64,000 nucleotides of DNA, taken from positions 3,224,001 to 3,288,000 of the forward strand of contig JAPFBE010000033.1 in NCBI GenBank assembly GCA_034336665.1. The letters run 5' to 3'. The notes below the pieces were generated by a model that saw only the letters and a list, made by a program, of their open reading frames with translations, was not told the DNA's origin and searched no databases. The position numbers were made by a program, and so were the translations under genes. Positions 8,160 through 52,245 of the stretch are shown one piece after another; the stretch's first letter is position 1, and each line of letters starts with the position of its first letter. The DNA is from Luscinia megarhynchos. Taxonomy: Eukaryota; Chordata; Aves; Passeriformes; Turdidae.

Positions 8160-8745
8160 TAAGAATTTAAACCCGGACTCAGAACTATTACTAATAAACT
8201 CTGAGCAATTAATTTAAAGACCCGAGTTGGTAAATTGGCTGAATATAGCTACCCCATTGTTAGTAATTTTAGAGTATACTGTGGAATATGGGGCTGTGAT
8301 TGCTATCATTTTGTATGTTTTATCTGTAAAGTGTGCCAGAAACGGTGGTAGACCCACTGCCAAAAGAACAGACCCCCAAGGGGAGTCTGTAAAGGGTGTT
8401 ACTGAATTAAAAAAGAAGCTCACACGAGCCACCCTGAAGGTGGGAAAAATTACTGGGAGAATAGTAGAACAGTCTCAAGAGTAGTGCGAAATATTTGTAA
8501 AAAAAGTAAACCCTGAGAACTATTGCTATCACTCCGACGAACCGACACCATTTATAGCACAGATCATCAAAGGGTGTTGCCAAAAGGCCTTAACTGGGGC
8601 CCAGTGGGTCCAGAGTGATTCACAAGTAGATAAAAATTGGAAATCGTATAAGAACAAAAAGGGGCAAAGCTACAGACCTCCTGAAGCCTACCTTTGCTGC
8701 CGAGAAGATGGAACACCCCGCGGCTGGCTGCAACCCAGTCTGCGG
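8160..8745 (+). pseudogene. Cys-rich accessory ORF, decayed copy (gERV-2)
   Basis: Between pol and env, the frame containing 8295-8403 encodes a Cys/His cluster with spacing C-F-x-C-x2-C-x6-H-C-x9-C-x2-C, the same as in gERV-3 and gERV-4. A TAG at 8349-8351 replaces a Trp codon inside the cluster, again a G-to-A type change. Further on, a conserved N-P-E-N-Y-C-Y-H block (about 8511-8535) and a terminal C-C-R-E-D-G block (about 8695-8712) match the other copies. The C-terminal block overlaps the env ATG at 8708. Confidence 0.78.
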
Positions 8746-26544: not shown

Positions 26545-27100
26545 TGTTATAAATGAGCACAATGGGCCATCTCATACCAATCAAAATAATCAATTTATTA
26601 TTGTAGAAAAGAGAAAGCAAAGTTGCAGCGCTGGGCGGCAGGGGAGTCACCGCTCCACCAACTGCCGCGCCCACCCCTCTTAGTTCGTCCCTTTTAAGTT
26701 GTTCGGTTTCCGGATTACGTGTTCTTCTTCTAGTAATTTTGCGCATGCTCCTCCAGTTGCTAGGGGGTCTTCTTCTGCCTTCTGGTGGTCGAGGGATGAA
26801 GGTGAGGAGTCTTCCTCAGCCTTGTCCTGCTGACCCCTTCTCCTTATAAGGTGATCCGGCGGTTCCTTGGAAACTTACTGGCACTTAAAGCGATATGTGA
26901 TTTATGCAAGCAAAGCAAAACAATTAACAACATCCTGGCCTTACTTTCAAGGTCTGTCAGGCTAGCAAAGCAAAACAATTAACAACATCTTGGCAAGCAA
27001 AGCAAAGCAATAAAACAATTTACGACATCCTGGCCCCACAGGCCCAGGCGATATCTTTTCAAGGTCTGTCAGGCGAACAAAAGGTTCCTTATCTATCACA
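26545..27100 (-). repeat. 3' LTR of gERV-3 (556 bp)
   Basis: In sense it starts TGTGATAG and ends ATAACA. On the minus strand TATA (CTTATAAGGA) lies at 26841-26850 and AATAAA at 26594-26599. It is near-identical to the 5' LTR. Confidence 0.95.
26906..27034 (-). repeat. Three direct repeats in gERV-3 U3
   Basis: The plus strand shows three copies of an AGCAAAGCAAA..CAATT..ACAWC..TGGC unit (about 26906-26940, 26964-26993, 26994-27034). They lie upstream of the TATA element in the LTR sense direction, where enhancers sit. The 5' LTR has the same three. Confidence 0.7.
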
Positions 27101-27114
27101 ATCCCCCCTTTTTC
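27101..27114 (-). other. Polypurine tract of gERV-3
   Basis: The minus strand reads GAAAAAGGGGGGAT immediately before the 3' LTR. Confidence 0.85.
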
Positions 27115-27120
27115 TATATT

Positions 27121-29169
27121 TTACTTTTGTTCGCTAAATCTTTGTAATTCTCTTCTGCTTAATTCTAAATAGTCTTCTGTTTTTTCCCCATTTAAAGTTT
27201 CATATTTTGCTCTTATAAGCATCAAGTGGGCAGCTTCAAGCCTTCCTTTCACTATGTTAATAAGTTTGTTGAAAATGCATGGCCCGAATGTTAGTGTCAA
27301 AATGAACAATACTAATGGTCTTGCTATGGTGGATAAGAGGGTTGTTAGCCAAGGGGAGTGGACAAACCAGGATTCATACCAACTTTGTTGTGCTTCCCGT
27401 TCCCTTTTCCTTTGCTCTAGTTGTTTCCGTAACTCTGCCATGGTGTCAATCACAATTCCTGTATGGTCTGTGTAAGTACAACATTCTTCTCTTAGATCCA
27501 CACAGAGCCCCCCTTGTTGTAAAAACAAGAGATCTAACCCTCTGCGATTTTGTAATACTACCTCTGATAGAGATCTTACCGATTTTACTAGCCCATCTAT
27601 TGCCTTTTCAATTCTACTTAGGTCTTCATCTACTGAAATTCTCAAGTTTCTGATCCCTTGTTGTTGATTTGCCAAGGATGCTACCCCAGTTCCTATTCCT
27701 GCTCCTCCGACACTTAGCAATACTGCCACTGTGAGTGCTGTAAACGGTTCTCTTTTCACTAAGTGATGTTCAGGGATAATTTGGTGTTCATACACATAAT
27801 CCTTTGGATGATATGATATTCGGGGAATAATGAGAACCTGTATACAGTATTCCGATGTCTCATTGAAGTTTCTGATGTCTAGGCATGGGGTAACTCCTAG
27901 GTTATTGCAAATCCATTTTGTATTAGCTGCAGGGATAAGCCATTGAGCAGGTTTCCGCGGGTCGGAGATGGACATTTTAACTTGACAGAGATGGTCTTTT
28001 TCTATGGGTATATTTCCCACACATCTCCCTTTTCCCCTCACCTGAGCCAGTGATAACCCAGGTGTATTTTCTTTTCCCTTTTTCCATAAGCACTCCCTGG
28101 GGTTTGTTCCGTTGACTCGCTTAGATTTTGCGGGAGACCCTAAGGCTTCATAAAAGGGTGGTCTTATCATGTAGCATAACCAGCATCCTTTTGTTAAATT
28201 AGGATGAGTATTATTCAGGACCCCAAATGTGGCTTGCATTACTTTCCACAACGCACCATATTCTGGGGTGGACTGAGGCTCACGTGACCAATTAAAAGAT
28301 TTATTCCTTCCCTCAGTCTTGTTAGTTTCTAGGGTTACATTGTCAACTAATTCCGTGCTATTCCCCTCTTCTTCATTGTTGATAACTGGGTTTGGTCCCA
28401 TAGGTACTGGGTCATGTAGGACTGGCTCTTTTTTTATGAGAAAATGTCCTCCCCGATCTCTTCGGGGTTCCCATAACCTAGCTCCCCAAGTTTTACCAAT
28501 CACCCATACTGTATCCCTGAGCTTGTCCTTGGTGATATTAATCTGTATTCCTTGGCAGTCACCAGGATTTCCCACCCCGGAGTCGGAGCCTATATCAGGG
28601 GGAGTGCAACCCTTAGGTCTCCACCCCACAGTCAGGTATGGATCCTTTCCTCCTCCTGGGGGAAACCCGTGAGCCACCGTTTCGCATCCCCAATATCCAC
28701 AATAATATTCCCCTGGGTAATTACAATAGCCTTTTCCCGGATTGGATGCAGGGCAAAAATAAAACCCCTTCTTATTTAAGCAAGGTTGTGTTTGAATAAT
28801 GTCACAGAGCTGACAATCAAACGAGGGGCTTCCTGAGGTCACTACTGTTTGAATAATTTTCTGATCTTCCCACCTTATCAGTGACCATCTAAAGGGTTCG
28901 TGACTGGCCTCTGCCGACCCAATAACAAGCCCCACAAGTCCTCCCATTATACATAATTTTAGAGCTAGGGGATGCTCACTGCCAGAATTAATTTGGGTTT
29001 TAACAATTTTCTCTGCCCTATTTCCCATGCTGTCTCCCCTCCGGCCTTGGGTTTCCAAGAGTTTAGGTGCCATATCGGTGTTTATACTTGGTGGAGGTTC
29101 CCTTTCCCCACCACTTACCCTTCTGCCTCGCCCGCCAACCAGGTTGCTACTAGTTGCGGGGTAACCCAT
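27121..29169 (-). CDS. env: Envelope glycoprotein, intact open frame (gERV-3)
   Basis: This is a retroviral class I fusion glycoprotein that would sit in the membrane as SU/TM. An ATG at 29169 gives 682 codons; the open frame extends two codons further to a GTG. A long leader has a hydrophobic signal core at about residues 71-88. SU has about ten N-X-S/T sites and a C-W-L-C motif near residue 330. The K-R cleavage site at about 472-473 is followed by a Gly-rich hydrophobic fusion peptide. TM has a Q-N-R-R-G-L-D-L-L-containing stretch and C-x6-C-C at about 556-564, then a membrane anchor near 607-631 and a roughly 50-residue tail. All hallmarks of gamma-type Env are present without a stop. Its start overlaps the accessory ORF by 20 nt. 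Confidence 0.95.
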   Translation of the reverse strand: MGYPATSSNLVGGRGRRVSGGEREPPPSINTDMAPKLLETQGRRGDSMGNRAEKIVKTQINSGSEHPLALKLCIMGGLVGLVIGSAEASHEPFRWSLIRWEDQKIIQTVVTSGSPSFDCQLCDIIQTQPCLNKKGFYFCPASNPGKGYCNYPGEYYCGYWGCETVAHGFPPGGGKDPYLTVGWRPKGCTPPDIGSDSGVGNPGDCQGIQINITKDKLRDTVWVIGKTWGARLWEPRRDRGGHFLIKKEPVLHDPVPMGPNPVINNEEEGNSTELVDNVTLETNKTEGRNKSFNWSREPQSTPEYGALWKVMQATFGVLNNTHPNLTKGCWLCYMIRPPFYEALGSPAKSKRVNGTNPRECLWKKGKENTPGLSLAQVRGKGRCVGNIPIEKDHLCQVKMSISDPRKPAQWLIPAANTKWICNNLGVTPCLDIRNFNETSEYCIQVLIIPRISYHPKDYVYEHQIIPEHHLVKREPFTALTVAVLLSVGGAGIGTGVASLANQQQGIRNLRISVDEDLSRIEKAIDGLVKSVRSLSEVVLQNRRGLDLLFLQQGGLCVDLREECCTYTDHTGIVIDTMAELRKQLEQRKREREAQQSWYESWFVHSPWLTTLLSTIARPLVLFILTLTFGPCIFNKLINIVKGRLEAAHLMLIRAKYETLNGEKTEDYLELSRRELQRFSEQK

Positions 29170-29797
29170 CTTCACGGCAGCAAGGATATTCTTCAGGGGT
29201 GGGATTCACTCCTCTTTTCCACTTTCTTTCCCTGGAGTGCCAACTCCTTTCTTTCAACGGTGGGGTATCACACCTGAGTTTCTTTACCTGTTTTCGGCAC
29301 TTTACTTCTACAATATCCGTATTAAATGGACCCGAAGGCTCGTTGGGGTGGTAACAATAAAGCTCAGGGTTAATGCCTTTGGAGAATATCTGCCACCAGG
29401 ACGGGGATCCCACTTTTAGCTCTCGAGCTGCTACCTTTTGGCTTAGGACCAAGGTAGTCAGCTCGCGCTGTTTCTCCCAACAAGGCTGACACACACTCCT
29501 AGGAGCCCTCCCCTTCTGGCAGTGGACCCACCACAGCTCTTTGCAAATTTTACAGCAAAAGCATACAAATGGATAGCAACAACAATCTAACCAACTAGAT
29601 GCCACCTTTATATCATTATGATTTACATTACCCTCCCCATGATACAGTTTTCCCTTATATTCCAACCTAACGGCCCGATAATAAGGTTGTTGTGCAAGTT
29701 CTTCTAAGTGTCCACAATATCCAGGTGACTCTGAAGTTCCTATGAGCTCTTTTTGTAATATCCAATTATCCCCTACCCAAATGTCCTCTGAGTCCAT
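29150..29797 (-). CDS. Cys-rich accessory protein between pol and env (gERV-3), intact
   Basis: I do not recognise a family. The ATG at 29797 follows the pol stop TAA with no gap, and the frame runs 215 codons. Around residues 70-106 is a Cys/His cluster with spacing C-F-x-C-x2-C-x6-H-C-x9-C-x2-C, which looks able to bind two metal ions. It is followed by a W-W-x-I-F-S-K-G region, a Y-C-Y-H-x-N-E-P block, a Lys/Arg-rich stretch (about 170-197) and a C-terminal C-C-R-E-D-G. The same landmarks occur in gERV-2 (8160-8745) and gERV-4 (about 51650-52245). No signal peptide or membrane helix is evident. The Cys cluster plus basic stretch recalls nucleic-acid-binding regulators of complex retroviruses, but that is inference. 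Confidence 0.85.
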   Translation of the reverse strand: MDSEDIWVGDNWILQKELIGTSESPGYCGHLEELAQQPYYRAVRLEYKGKLYHGEGNVNHNDIKVASSWLDCCCYPFVCFCCKICKELWWVHCQKGRAPRSVCQPCWEKQRELTTLVLSQKVAARELKVGSPSWWQIFSKGINPELYCYHPNEPSGPFNTDIVEVKCRKQVKKLRCDTPPLKERSWHSRERKWKRGVNPTPEEYPCCREDGLPRN

Positions 29798-30916
29798 TTA
29801 TGACGGTGTTTTTCTCCTCAGGGTCAACTTCAAATCTCCTGCAGTCTCTTTCACCTCCCATTCAGGGCTTTTAGTGTCCTTCGTGAACCTTGATGGATTC
29901 ACTGGTCCCTTTATTCGGCTGGCATGAGTCCACCCTTTTTCTGCTGTTCAGATGGCCGTGTCTGTGGTGAGTAGTACCAAATACGGTCCTTCCCACTTCG
30001 GGGTTATTGGGTTTTCTTTCCAACTTCGAACCAGGACCCAATCTCCAGGTTGTACCTGATGTAACACAAGATCTAAAGGTGGTCTCTGAGCCCACATCCC
30101 TTTTTCCCACAGTTGTTTTCTAAATTTCATTAGGGTGACCAAATACTTATTGATATATTGTTCACTAATGTTAGGATTGGATTGAACCTTTTCCAAATTA
30201 TAGGGCATTCCATATAACATTTCAAATGGAGACAATCCTACATCTGCTCGTGGTTGTGTTCGAATATTTAGCAAGGCTAAGGGAATGCATTTTGTCCATG
30301 ACAGCCTAGTTTCTAGTACCAATTTAGTGAGTTGTTTCTTTATTTCTCCATTCATCCTTTCTACCCTTCCTGAACTTTGAGGATGCCAAGGGGTATGTTT
30401 CTCCCATCTAATTCCCAATGCTTCCGCCAGTTCCTGTGTTATTTTCGATGTGAATTGTGGCCCTTTGTCAGAGTCTATGGTCTCAGGCACTCCATACCTG
30501 GGCACCATTTCTTCCAACAAAGTTTTTACCACTGTCTGGGCTGTTTCTCTTGCAGTTGGGAAAGCTTCCACATAATGGGTGAGATGGTCTACTATGACTA
30601 AGAGGTATCTGACCCTTCCAACCTTTGGTAACTCAGTGAAGTCTATTTGCAAATTTGCAAAAGGCCTTTTTGCCAAAGGCCTTCCCCCTTGGGGTAATCT
30701 CCTCAGATTACTGCGGTTTACCCACAGACAGGTGGGACAGCTTTTAGTGATATGTTTAGCCATATCATGGAGCCCAATACTCATGAATTTAGTAGCAAAG
30801 TGGTCAACCAACCCCTGGGCCCCCCAATGTGTCTTTTGATGTAATTTATATAACATTCGCTGAGCTACCGCTTTGGGCAATATCTCTCTTCCATCTTCTA
30901 ACACCCATTTGCCCAT
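29798..30916 (-). pseudogene. pol: Integrase, one nonsense codon near the end (gERV-3)
   Basis: This enzyme would insert viral DNA into the host genome. The zinc site H-x3-H and C-P-T-C is followed by catalytic Asp in Q-I-D-F-T-E, Asp in S-D-K-G-P-Q-F and Glu in G-R-V-E-R-M-N-G. The C-terminal domain has W-E-G-P-Y. The open part runs 30916-29951. A TGA at 29948-29950 replaces an Arg-type codon, after which the same frame continues to the TAA at 29798-29800, adjoining the accessory ATG. All catalytic residues are intact. Confidence 0.9.
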
Positions 30917-32484: not shown

Positions 32485-33009
32485 CTAAGCTGTTGTCTTC
32501 TCCCCCGTTTCAGGGTCTTCCCATTCAAAGGCAAAATAATCTCTACTTAATTCCTCGAGAGGGCAGGCCCAGAATGCATCCTTTAAATCTATTACACTGT
32601 ACCACAAATTGTCCGGACCCAGCTTACTCAAAAGTGTATAAGGATTCGCCACCACAGGGAACCTGGCTATGGTCCGTTTGTTTATTTCCCTCAAATCATG
32701 TACCAAATGATAAGACCCATCTGCCTTTTTAACCGGAAGTATTGGTGTATTATATGGTGACATACAAGGCTCTAACAATCCCCTACTCAACAACCTGTCT
32801 ATCTCAGGCTTCAATCCCCTCCTTCCCTCAGGAGAGATGGGGTATTGCTTTATCCTTACTGGAATTTCGGGGTTCTTGATTTTAACTGTAAATGGGGCTA
32901 TTTTAAACTGCCCCACACTCCCAGGGTTATACCACACTTCCGGATTTATTTCCTTCTCGTCCTCCTGTCTGAGGGGACAGAGCCTAATTTGTAACTCTTT
33001 CTCCACCAC
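32485..33009 (-). pseudogene. pol: Reverse transcriptase N-terminal part (gERV-3)
   Basis: A 174-codon open piece covers the protease-RT linker and RT fingers up to W-E-D-P-E-T. It is in frame with protease apart from the TAG at 33010-33012. A frameshift ends it at 32485. Confidence 0.9.
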
Positions 33010-33345: not shown

Positions 33346-34766
33346 CTAATCTGCCTTAAACTCCTCATCCCTAATTCGGATCCGGCATTCCCTCTTGAAG
33401 TGTCCTTTCTTCCCGCAATAAAAACACACCTTTAAGTCCTGCCTTTCTCTCGAGTCCTTTGTTTCGCTCGACTGTCGACCGGGCCTCCTCTGTACCGCTC
33501 CCGATCTTGCCCTCTGCTTTCCCGTACCGCAGCAACCATCATTCTAACCTGTCGCTTATGACTTTCCTCTTCCCTTCGTACATAAACCTTCTGAGCTTCC
33601 CTCAATAGTTCATCCAACCCTCTGTCCTGCCAGTCTTCCATCTTCTGTATCTTTTTCCTAATATCCTCCCAAGATTTTGAAACAAAATGCACTTTCAGTA
33701 CTGCCTGCCCCATCTGACCATCCGGATCCATTCCTGAGTAAAGTTGGAAGTTCTTTCGCAGCCTTTCTAGCCACTCTGTGGGAGTCTCATCTTTCTTCTG
33801 CCTCTCGTTAAAAGCCTTGTTGATATTCTGACCCCTCGGGACCGATTCCCTGATCCCTTGAACTATTATTGTTCTCAAATCTTGCATATGAACCCTATGG
33901 GCTGGATTTTGATGGTCCCAATTAGGATTCTGTAGCGGCCATTTTATATTGGCTGCTGGTCCTTGTGCGTGTTGGGCATCCCAAATACACATGCCTTCTC
34001 TCCTTATCATGTTCTTTTCCTCTGCTGTAAACAGGATATTCAATATGGACTGCAATTCCTCCCAAGTATACATGTTTGGGCCCAGAAACTGGTCTACCCT
34101 CTCCGCTACCCCTAGCGGGTCTTCCAACAGATGTCCCATTTCCTTCTTGAAATCTCTCATGTCTCCTGAACTGAGGGGTACCGATATAAACCCTATGCCG
34201 GCCTGTGGTCCTCCCATCGGCATTTCCCTTAGGGGATACAATCCTTTCCGGGCCCTACTCCTGGTAGTTGGTCCTGTATAATCTGAGTGGTCAGAGTCTG
34301 AATCTTCCCCGGGAGGTGCACTTGGACCAGCCGCAGCCTCTGGTATCTGAGCCGGAGGTATGTATGGAGGAGGGGCCACCATGGTCTCCTCTGGCCGGTT
34401 TCCCTTCTTTTTATCCTTATTTTCCCTAGATTTCTCCGCCAATTTAAAAATAAATACCTCCGGGCGTCCTACCCAAACCTTTGCATAATCACTCTCTTCA
34501 GCACAGAGAGGTTTTTTAGTGTTTACCCAAATATTCAGTTTTTGTTTTACCCAATCCTCTGAAGATCCAAATACTGGCCAAAATACATTTTTTGAAATTT
34601 CATTCCCACCCCACACCTCTACACAGTAATGTATCATTTTAGCCTTGTCCTTTCCCCCTGTATCGGGGAAATGTTCCCAATTATCTAACAGAAATCCTAA
34701 GGGGCTATCCCTAGGTACAGGTGGGAGTTTGATCTCTGCAGGAGGCTTACTCTTCCCCTGCCCCAT
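33346..34766 (-). pseudogene. gag: Gag with one frameshift in nucleocapsid (gERV-3)
   Basis: The ATG at 34766 starts M-G-Q-G-K-S-K (myristoylation signal). The frame is open for 444 codons to 33432 and includes matrix, a linker with a P-P-P-Y late-domain motif (about residue 133), and capsid. Near 33460-33480 a small indel moves the zinc knuckle (C-F-Y-C then H-F-K-R-E-C) into another frame that ends at the shared TAG 33346-33348. It is very similar to the unbroken gag of gERV-1. Confidence 0.9.
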
Positions 34767-34963
34767 TCCTCCAGAGTGCCTTTACACAATCAATGTTACT
34801 CTCGCTTCCCCTGTTTCGTGGCCCAAGCCCTCGCGGGTCAATGGGAACCGCACTACTAAGTGTCCGCACTCACTTGGGGAATCTGGCTGCCAGTTCCCCT
34901 CTCACACACACACCGCACCGCCACACTCTGGGATCCCGACCCTGCCCGAACGGATCCCTTTAT

Positions 34964-34969
34964 ACTTAC
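34964..34969 (-). promoter_or_regulatory. Leader splice donor (GTAAGT), gERV-3
   Basis: The minus strand reads GCAGGACGC|GTAAGTATA, identical in context to gERV-1. It is the expected donor for env and accessory messages. Confidence 0.72.
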
Positions 34970-35158: not shown

Positions 35159-35176
35159 ATCCGAGTCACGGCACCA
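35159..35176 (-). other. Primer binding site, tRNA-His (gERV-3)
   Basis: The minus strand reads TGGTGCCGTGACTCGGAT, identical to gERV-1 and three bases from the LTR end. Confidence 0.92.
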
Positions 35177-35179
35177 AGT

Positions 35180-35735
35180 TGTTATAAATGAGCACAATGG
35201 GCCATCTCATACCAATCAAAATAATCAATTTATTATTGTAGAAAAGAGAAAGCAAAGTTGCAGCGCTGGGCGGCAGGGGAGTCACCGCTCCACCAACTGC
35301 CGCGCCCACCCCTCTTAGTTCGTCCCTTTTAAATTGTTCAGTTTCCGGATTACGTGTTCTTCTTCTAGTAATTTTGTGCATGCTCCTCCAGTTGCTAGGG
35401 GGTCTTCTTCTGCCTTCTGGTGGTCGAGGGATGAAGGTGAGGAGTCTTCCTCAGCCTTGTCCTGCTGACCCCTTCTCCTTATAAGGTGATCCGGCGGTTC
35501 CTTGGAAACTTACTGGCACTTAAAGCGATATGTGATTTATGCAAGCAAAGCAAAACGATTAACAACATCCTGGCCTTACTTTCAAGGTCTGTCAGGCTAG
35601 CAAAGCAAAACAATTAACAACATCTTGGCAAGCAAAGCAAAGCAATAAAACAATTTACGACATCCTGGCCCCACAGGCCCAGGCGATATCTTTTCAAGGT
35701 CTGTCAGGCGAACAAAAGGTTCCTTATCTATCACA
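35180..35735 (-). repeat. 5' LTR of gERV-3 (556 bp)
   Basis: Same length and ends as the 3' LTR, with TATA near 35477-35486 on the minus strand. It is followed by the TCCAG duplication at 35736-35740. Confidence 0.95.
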
Positions 35736-35740
35736 TCCAG

Positions 35741-50193: not shown

Positions 50194-51741
50194 GACTCTA
50201 AGATTTTTAAATTCTTGCTGTTGGTTTACTAAAGAAGCTACTCCTGTTCCTACTCCAGCACCTCCTAATGTTAATAATACAGCAACTGTAAGGGCTGTAA
50301 ACAGTTCCCATTTTACCAGGTGGTGTCCTGGAGTGATTTGATGATGATGCACATAGTCCTTTGGGTGGTATACGATTCGGGGAACTATCATGACCTGAAT
50401 GCAGTATTCGGATGTTTCGTTGAAATTAGGTATTGATATACACGGGGTTACCCCTAATGTGTTACAGACCCACTTGGTGTTTGCAGCAGGGATTAACCAT
50501 TAGGCCGGTTTGCGGGAGTCGGTTACAGCCATTTTTACCCCGCAGAGGTGGTCTTTATCTCGAGGTATGTTGCCTATACACCTCCCCTTCCCATTTACCT
50601 GAGCCATCGATACCCCTGGGGTGCTTTCTTTTCCCCTTTTCCAAAGGCACAAGGAGGGATTGGTCCCATTTATTCTTTTAGATTTTGCTACAGAACCTAA
50701 GCCCTCATAAAAGGGTGGATTAATACTGTAACATAACCAGCACTCTTTAGTCAAATTGGGTTATGTACTATTTAACACCCTAAAGGTGGCTTGTAGGATC
50801 TTCCACAGGGGCCCTTTACTGGGTTGTGTCACGGCTGTTGTCTTTATTAGCTGTGATTCATTATTGGCCTCTGTAAAATTTTCTTGGGTTATGTTGACTA
50901 AGTTACTCAGATCCGTTATTGTGGCTTTTGAGTCTGTCATTATAGGATTTGGTCCAACAGGCTGAGGATCGTGGGGTATAATTTCCTTCTTTATAACAAT
51001 ATGTCCTCCTCGGTCTTTCCCGGGTTCCCATATTCTAACTCCCCAGAATTTTCCTACTACCTATCCCGGGTCTTGGGGTTGCATGACGTTAAGATAGACC
51101 CATTTGCAAGTACCGATATAAGTTACCACGCCTGATGGATCTGTCCAGGGTTTTTTACATCCATGTGGACTTCTTTCGACCCTTAAGTACTTATCTTGGA
51201 TTTGTACCGACCATCCTAGGGAAATTGTTTCACAGCCCCAATATCCACAGTAAAATTCCCCGGGGTAGTTACAGTATGACCTCCCTGGGTTAGATGCTGG
51301 ACACATGTAGAATACACTATAGGGGCTAGAACCTGTCCTATCAAGTAGGTCATCCAGGGTTATGTTAAAGCTAGGACTTCCCGAAGTAGTTTGTGTTTGA
51401 ATTTCTCTCTGACCTTCCCATTTTAAAAGTGACCATTTAAAAGGTTCATGACTTGCATGTACTCCTTTTAGGGACATTAAACAAATTATTCCTAACTGGA
51501 GGTAGTAGCTTCCCCAATGCCCGCAACCTGTCTGCCAGTGGTGATTACTATCCCATTGTTTCTGTAACCTGCCCTCCCATCGCCTTTGGGTCCCCACCTT
51601 TAGTCTCCTCTGTGCCCGTGGGCGACCCACTCCACAAGCATTTTCTCCTCTGCCTCGCCCATTAACTCGGTTGCAGCGAGCTATGGGGAGTTCCATCTTC
51701 TCGGCAGCAAGAGTACTCTTCAGGAGGGGTGTTTGCCCCAT
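50194..51741 (-). pseudogene. env: Envelope pseudogene, one frame with three stops, TM truncated (gERV-4)
   Basis: An ATG at 51741, with a second at 51696 that aligns with the gERV-3 env start. Open pieces 51061-51741, 50500-50754 and about 50194-50391 are all in one frame, separated by stops at 51061-51063, near 50755-50757 and at 50497-50499. SU has C-W-L-C. The cleavage site is altered (K-W for K-R). The frame is cut just after the fusion peptide by the LTR at 50193. It is closely related to gERV-3 env. Confidence 0.85.
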
Positions 51742-52245
51742 GCTTTTTGATGCGTTTAATATACCTGCTCCACTTGTGGGCTTTAATTAGAGGAGTATAG
51801 CAACTGAGTTTGGGTACCCACTGCCTACACAGGGCAGCTACAATTTTGGCTACAAATGGGTAGGTTCGTTAGAGTGGTAGCAGTAAAATTGAGGGTTCAC
51901 CCCCTTTGAAAAAATCTCCCACCACTCTTCGGATCCCACCGAAAGCCCTCCCACAGCCACTATGGTGGCTAGGACGTGAGACGTGAGCTTCTTTTGACTC
52001 CAATAACAATTGTGACACACCCTCCCAGGGATGTAACCATTGCGGCAATGGGCCCACCACTCTTCCTTACAAACTAAACAGACAAAGCATACAAACGGAT
52101 TACAATTTCCCCAGCAGTTTTCAGCATTACATTTGAGTTTGACTTCTGCACTTAGTACACTTTTCCCACCTTCTAGTGGTACCCCTGTTTTTCTGTTTTC
52201 TATTGTGAAAGAAAAGTACTGTGGATCCCAAGGTTCAGCATCCAT
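51650..52245 (-). pseudogene. Cys-rich accessory ORF, frameshifted near the end (gERV-4)
   Basis: The ATG at 52245 opens 131 codons to 51850. The Cys/His cluster C-F-x-C-x2-C-x6-H-C-x9-C-x2-C (about residues 50-77) has the same spacing as in gERV-3, though the other residues differ at many positions. The Y-C-Y-H-S-N-E-P block is present. A single-base shift near 51852 ends the frame. The expected tail, including C-C-R-E-D-G near 51705, is still readable in another frame and overlaps the env start. Confidence 0.8.

Follow-up and report, generated by a model that had tools for sequence, protein, structure and literature searches.

A conserved gene occupies a fixed place between pol and env in gammaretrovirus-like endogenous retroviruses (ERVs) of Luscinia megarhynchos. 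It is under purifying selection of about the strength seen on integrase and env, and a relative of its product folds confidently in silico. The gene is real and probably undescribed. Judged by its sequence, an open reading frame (ORF) that lies beyond gag, pol and env and has been selected across diverged viral lineages classes as a retroviral accessory gene. Our preferred reading, to which we give a probability of about 0.5, is that a bird gammaretrovirus-like lineage carried this viral accessory gene for a zinc-core protein, which would act as a regulator of the Tat/Rev/Tas class and be made from a subgenomic RNA. The Tat/Rev-like role is our best guess and is unproven.

The window, that is the whole stretch of 64,000 nucleotides analysed, contains the gene on its minus strand as an uninterrupted, Cys-rich ORF of 215 aa running from 29797 to 29150, as described in the earlier note. 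All parts of the surrounding provirus lie on the same strand. Upstream of the ORF are gag (33432..34766; Gag_p30, 3.6e-29), a reverse transcriptase fragment of 174 aa (32485..33009) and the integrase part of pol (29948..30916; rve and MLVIN_C), with no further pol frame of at least 120 aa between the last two. Downstream lies an env of the gammaretroviral type (27121..29169; TLV_coat, E=3e-106). The 5′ LTR (35180..35738) and the 3′ LTR (26545..27104) were delimited by self-comparison and are 99.1% identical, and the primer binding site TGGTGCCGTGACTCGGAT (35159..35176) is presumably that of tRNA-His. From the gamma-type domains present in gag, integrase and env, the LTR pair and the primer binding site, the window provirus is a gammaretrovirus-like (class I) ERV. 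It resembles simple gammaretroviruses and gamma-like ERVs of the MLV type in its Gag_p30, MLVIN_C integrase, TLV_coat env and gag-pol-env order, and differs from them in the conserved extra gene.

The env ATG at 29169 is the third codon of a listed frame beginning at 29175, which confirms a 20-nt overlap between the accessory ORF and the env start (29150..29169). The related claim that the accessory ATG abuts the pol TAA stands in part. A TAA is present at 29798..29800, directly before the ATG, and it ends pol in the sister copies L002-L004 (distance 0, same frame); the pol of the window copy, unlike theirs, already stops at 29948-29950. This pol is broken, its integrase ending prematurely and its reverse transcriptase being reduced to the 174-aa frame. 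The N-terminal SU differs blockwise among close copies of the same subfamily (window copy versus L002 and L004), which suggests recombination in env.

Two more copies of the accessory gene are present in the window, one at 51680..52245 on the minus strand with a frameshift near the YCYH block and one at 8262..8724 on the plus strand with in-frame stops. The spacing C-F-x-C-x2-C-x6-H-C-x9-C-x2-C, the YCYH block and the CCREDG tail, reported for all three copies, are all present in the 29150..29797 protein, and the motifs are kept in both broken copies. The three belong to different groups (the intact copy to subfamily A, the 51680..52245 copy to subfamily B and the 8262..8724 copy to a third group), and the two broken copies are therefore independent of the intact one, as had been proposed.

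A search of the window's own assembly (1.09 Gb, 1235 contigs) with the accessory protein gave 145 matches. Of these, 30 were taken as loci and 40 further regions were fetched (one of them a repeat), the weaker matches being left out. The resulting 70 loci, with the window copy as L001, and the two other window copies make 72 sequences at 69 places (L006/L008, L007/L009 and L010/L041 share a place). Grouping by best match assigned 11 sequences (8 places) to A, 36 to B and 25 to other groups. The full accessory frame is open at 4 of the 8 A places, including the window copy, and in 24 of the 36 B copies, giving 28 full-frame copies; the concern that the frame might be broken in most other copies is thus not borne out. 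In-frame stops occur within the matched part in 15 of the 25 more distant sequences, as expected for older or decayed copies, and in one of the 25, L043, the whole match is open from an ATG. An upstream integrase, a downstream env or both accompany 72 of 72 sequences, and 67 have both. The 28 open frames, taken with dN/dS values well below 1, place the accessory frame beyond chance. A remote group (L065-L069) has open frames of 176-184 codons with an Arg-rich end and no ATG near the frame start; it appears weakly constrained (dN/dS 0.66), and in L066 a site resembling an acceptor occurs 89 nt into the frame. Among the first 30 genome matches, 17 (at 16 places) fall on three contigs that make up less than 1% of the assembly, the window being on one of them; these contigs may belong to the W chromosome or to some other region rich in ERVs.

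Selection was estimated pairwise by the Nei-Gojobori method on codons outside the env overlap, using the 4 A and 24 B copies whose full frame is exact, a sample that favours conserved copies. With the overlap masked, dN/dS is far below 1 both between pairs and across divergence bins. In five of the six A pairs the accessory frame gives 0.15-0.24 against 0.68-3.07 in the other two frames; the sixth, near-identical pair (L002-L004), with 0 synonymous and 3 nonsynonymous changes, falls outside these ranges. In each of three A pairs, none of 2000 bootstrap replicates reached a dN/dS of 1. The pooled value for B is 0.28, the other two frames giving 1.11 and 0.83. Along bins of rising dS the B value falls through 0.59, 0.43, 0.32, 0.26 and 0.18, as expected from selection during viral replication followed by neutral decay after insertion. 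Distances between A and B are saturated at synonymous sites. By the same measure, dN/dS is 0.20 for integrase in two A pairs and 0.28 for env SU in B (pairs differing by more than 25% were dropped from the pooled env estimate), and the accessory gene is therefore about as constrained as integrase and env. Within the B overlap, dN/dS is 3.98 in the env frame and 0.23 in the accessory frame, which indicates that the accessory protein is the constrained partner and rules the overlap. Cys and His positions in B differ from those of L014 in 2 of 456 cells, and the other residues in 155 of 4200.

As read from the sequence, a leader of some 90 aa precedes the hydrophobic signal of env (L014:2012-2300 in B, where it is Arg-rich; window 28900-29169 in A). 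Outside the overlap, the leader has a pooled dN/dS of 0.755 in B and of 0.24-0.41 in five A pairs, the latter resting on very few changes. It is reminiscent of the long signal peptides found in MMTV Rem or JSRV.

The accessory protein family has 16 conserved Cys/His positions. An AlphaFold (AF2) model of the relative P0014, which is 47% identical to the window's protein, has a pLDDT of 87, with block means of 92-98 over residues 11-160, while the model of the window's own protein, made from 7 sequences, is poor (pLDDT 52.5). Comparison of the P0014 model with the PDB and BFVD gave no significant fold match. The window ORF has no Pfam match, and a PDB sequence search with it returned nothing below E 0.8. 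Among 28 family members searched against Pfam at E up to 10, there was no Tat, Rev, Vif or Bet; the matches fall to four unrelated families with one member each, the best being DUF7804 at 0.025; most matches weaker than about 0.1 do not pass the HMMER filters. Comparisons with Pfam, PDB sequences and structures thus revealed no similarity to a known regulatory protein.

An Arg-rich tail is present in 16 of the 21 members that reach the CC[R/H]ED motif and is absent in A and B, where stop codons cut it off. The core must therefore work without the tail, and this loss speaks against a simple RNA-binding role for the tail. Altogether, the protein probably consists of a compact core of about 160 residues with several metal (zinc) sites, to which most members add a basic helix and the Arg-rich tail. 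The earlier suggestion of a regulatory protein with a metal site agrees with the 16 conserved Cys/His positions and with the tail of most members, but not with the tailless subfamily A, and we infer such a function rather than observe it.

A single-sequence protein search found 8 proteins at E of at most 1, and a profile search 37 at E of at most 10, of which 34 are below 1e-4. Six of these 34 relatives are named, and all six come from birds: one is a goshawk protein and the other five are barn swallow models. Accessory segments can also be read in weaker matches from barn swallow (E 0.008), budgerigar (0.11) and zebra finch (1.1). Relatives 38-59% identical to P0014 keep the same frame. Accessory C-terminal stretches are seen in the gene models P0040 (Melopsittacus CENPQ isoform X2), P0011, P0012 and P0036-P0039 (Hirundo) and P0041 (Taeniopygia), and P0030 (goshawk LOC126043156), annotated as uncharacterized, is a nearly complete accessory protein. 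Read from their sequences, the named annotated relatives resemble ERV copies or gene models with ERV pieces.

A spliced subgenomic RNA would serve as mRNA for the accessory protein, and env would be reached either by ribosomes scanning past the accessory AUG or through an acceptor of its own inside the accessory frame, with its own AUG-free leader. Up to the CCRED motif, only 3 of 4464 residues are internal Met (members without the motif being taken whole as core), compared with 11 of 808 from the motif on. This scarcity may be because env starts nearby, its ATG being located at the motif in A and eleven codons before it in B, and the meaning of the result rests on these two subfamilies, in which the env start is placed. 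Alternatively, the deficit may reflect protein chemistry, a Cys-rich core containing few Met. Counted in any frame, 4-7 AUGs occur between the accessory and env AUGs in A, compared with 12-14 in shuffled sequences; 0 of 500 shuffles were as low in three of the four copies, and 11 of 500 in the fourth. For six B copies the numbers (4-6 versus 6-8) are not significantly reduced (P 0.16-0.28). Every frame opened by the out-of-frame AUGs common to most copies closes before the env AUG, the exceptions being private or rare AUGs in one A copy and three B copies, whose frames run past it. Directly before env comes a stretch free of AUGs, which is 395 nt long in three of four A copies and 151 nt in the fourth; in B it measures 129-350 nt in 22 of 24 copies and 14 nt in the other two.

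Candidate splice donors are predicted on the minus strand in the leader at 34873 (GTGAGT) and, more weakly, at 34969 (GTAAGT). A candidate acceptor is predicted at 29961..29963, 164 nt before the accessory ATG. Each of the four A copies has it, and L043 has one at an equal distance; it is not among the best sites in three B copies. Our weight-matrix scans found no well-scoring acceptor common to A and B. A first cut-off gave almost nothing and a second one weak candidates, and because of the weakness of these scans splicing is left as an inference. In six Hirundo models the accessory-like part starts at nearly the same residues (EIVDCTC). Their shared start suggests a predicted acceptor at this position, which favours env having its own acceptor.

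A zinc-dependent nuclear regulator seems to us the most likely product, given a core that probably binds metal and is conserved rather than fast-changing, together with the basic helix and, in most members, an Arg-rich tail. In such a regulator, the zinc core would bind a host nuclear factor, the basic parts would contact viral RNA or serve as a nuclear localisation signal, and the outcome would be raised transcription or export of viral RNA. The main rival, a serious but unlikely one, is a counter-defence factor resembling Vif, Vpx or Bet, whose zinc fold would be an adaptor that neutralises a host antiviral protein, the basic parts being incidental. A place between pol and env and a metal-stabilised, adaptor-like core would suit an accessory antagonist, and a tail that A and B can dispense with suits this explanation as well. 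Antagonists, however, usually change fast, whereas this gene is under purifying selection with nearly invariant core positions, and it has no match to such families in Pfam, which we take to include them. It is rather improbable that the protein is a component of the virion or of replication, such as a nucleic-acid chaperone or a capsid-associated protein, instead of a regulator. Nucleic acid could be bound by a Cys/His-rich protein with a basic tail, and the gene follows directly after integrase; in A a single stop separates it from pol, whose frame it shares (4 of 4). Against this, in 17 of 24 B copies the accessory ORF starts 53 nt after the pol stop and in a different frame (same frame, 54 nt, in 2; not determined in 5). 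A fusion to Pol is therefore unlikely, and read-through of the single stop in A was set aside.

Capture of a host gene appears still less probable. The precedent is the KIT-ligand gene captured at the same genomic position, between pol and env, in the crocodilian ERV CrocERV29 (PMC4299795). For the bird gene, protein, Pfam and PDB sequence searches found no cellular family, remote homologues being beyond their reach; every locus examined has ERV neighbours, and, as noted above, the annotated relatives that bear names resemble ERV copies or models with ERV pieces. On the protein search and the ERV neighbours, a host gene was set aside as improbable. It is very improbable that the frame has no function and stays open owing to chance, to the env overlap or to the recency of the copies. 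Some copies are indeed young, as the similarity of the window LTRs shows, but the dN/dS values with the overlap masked, the frame controls and the maintenance of the frame in the diverged relatives all speak against it, and the masking likewise disposes of an env-overlap artefact. The ORF is also not a misread part of pol or env: it has no significant pol, env or Pfam match, a complete integrase with MLVIN_C lies upstream of it in L004, and the TLV_coat match begins downstream.

Several known systems share single features with the bird gene. Proteins of the Tat/Rev/Tas class have a Cys/His-rich core and an Arg-rich segment and are encoded by small accessory genes near env. The bird family is like them in its Cys/His-rich core, in its place near env and, for most members, in an Arg-rich segment; no Pfam or fold match to them was found, and it differs in its larger, folded core with the 16 conserved positions. 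In the bicistronic vpu-env arrangement of HIV-1, the accessory ORF overlaps the env start and ribosomes scan past it to env; Vpu is a membrane protein. The bird ORF similarly overlaps the env start, and AUGs are scarce before env in A, but as judged from its sequence it is Cys-rich and has no obvious hydrophobic segment. Extra ORFs of the JSRV orf-x type are placed inside pol, near its 3′ end and in another frame (PMC8278194), whereas the bird gene begins after the pol stop, immediately following it in all four A copies (0 nt) and 53-54 nt further on in 19 of 24 B copies (5 not determined). By position the nearest case is the CrocERV29 KIT-ligand, an ORF that copies a known host cytokine (PMC4299795); in contrast, no cellular relative was found for the bird gene, which is common to diverged viral lineages. 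Chicken Ovex1 is likewise an avian ERV with env downstream of pol, and its authors report no obvious accessory ORFs (PMC2717909), in which it differs from the present family. In the full-text literature searched, covered through titles and the beginnings of abstracts and with most subscription journals outside its range, no description of such a gene was found, in agreement with the impression that it is undescribed.

The gene would also explain some bird gene models now called uncharacterized or chimeric as being its pieces. The 28 full-frame copies, the model and the fixed place provide a handle on the host trait that made the gene necessary. Gammaretroviruses are the textbook simple retroviruses, and an additional gene that is conserved and selected, and whose confidently predicted core matched no known fold in our comparisons, would imply the rise of complexity among them too. 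We tentatively suggest, at somewhat less than even odds, that birds carried, and may still carry, complex gammaretroviruses with an extra gene ahead of env that codes for a zinc-dependent regulator of a previously unseen fold, which would represent a separate origin of retroviral complexity.
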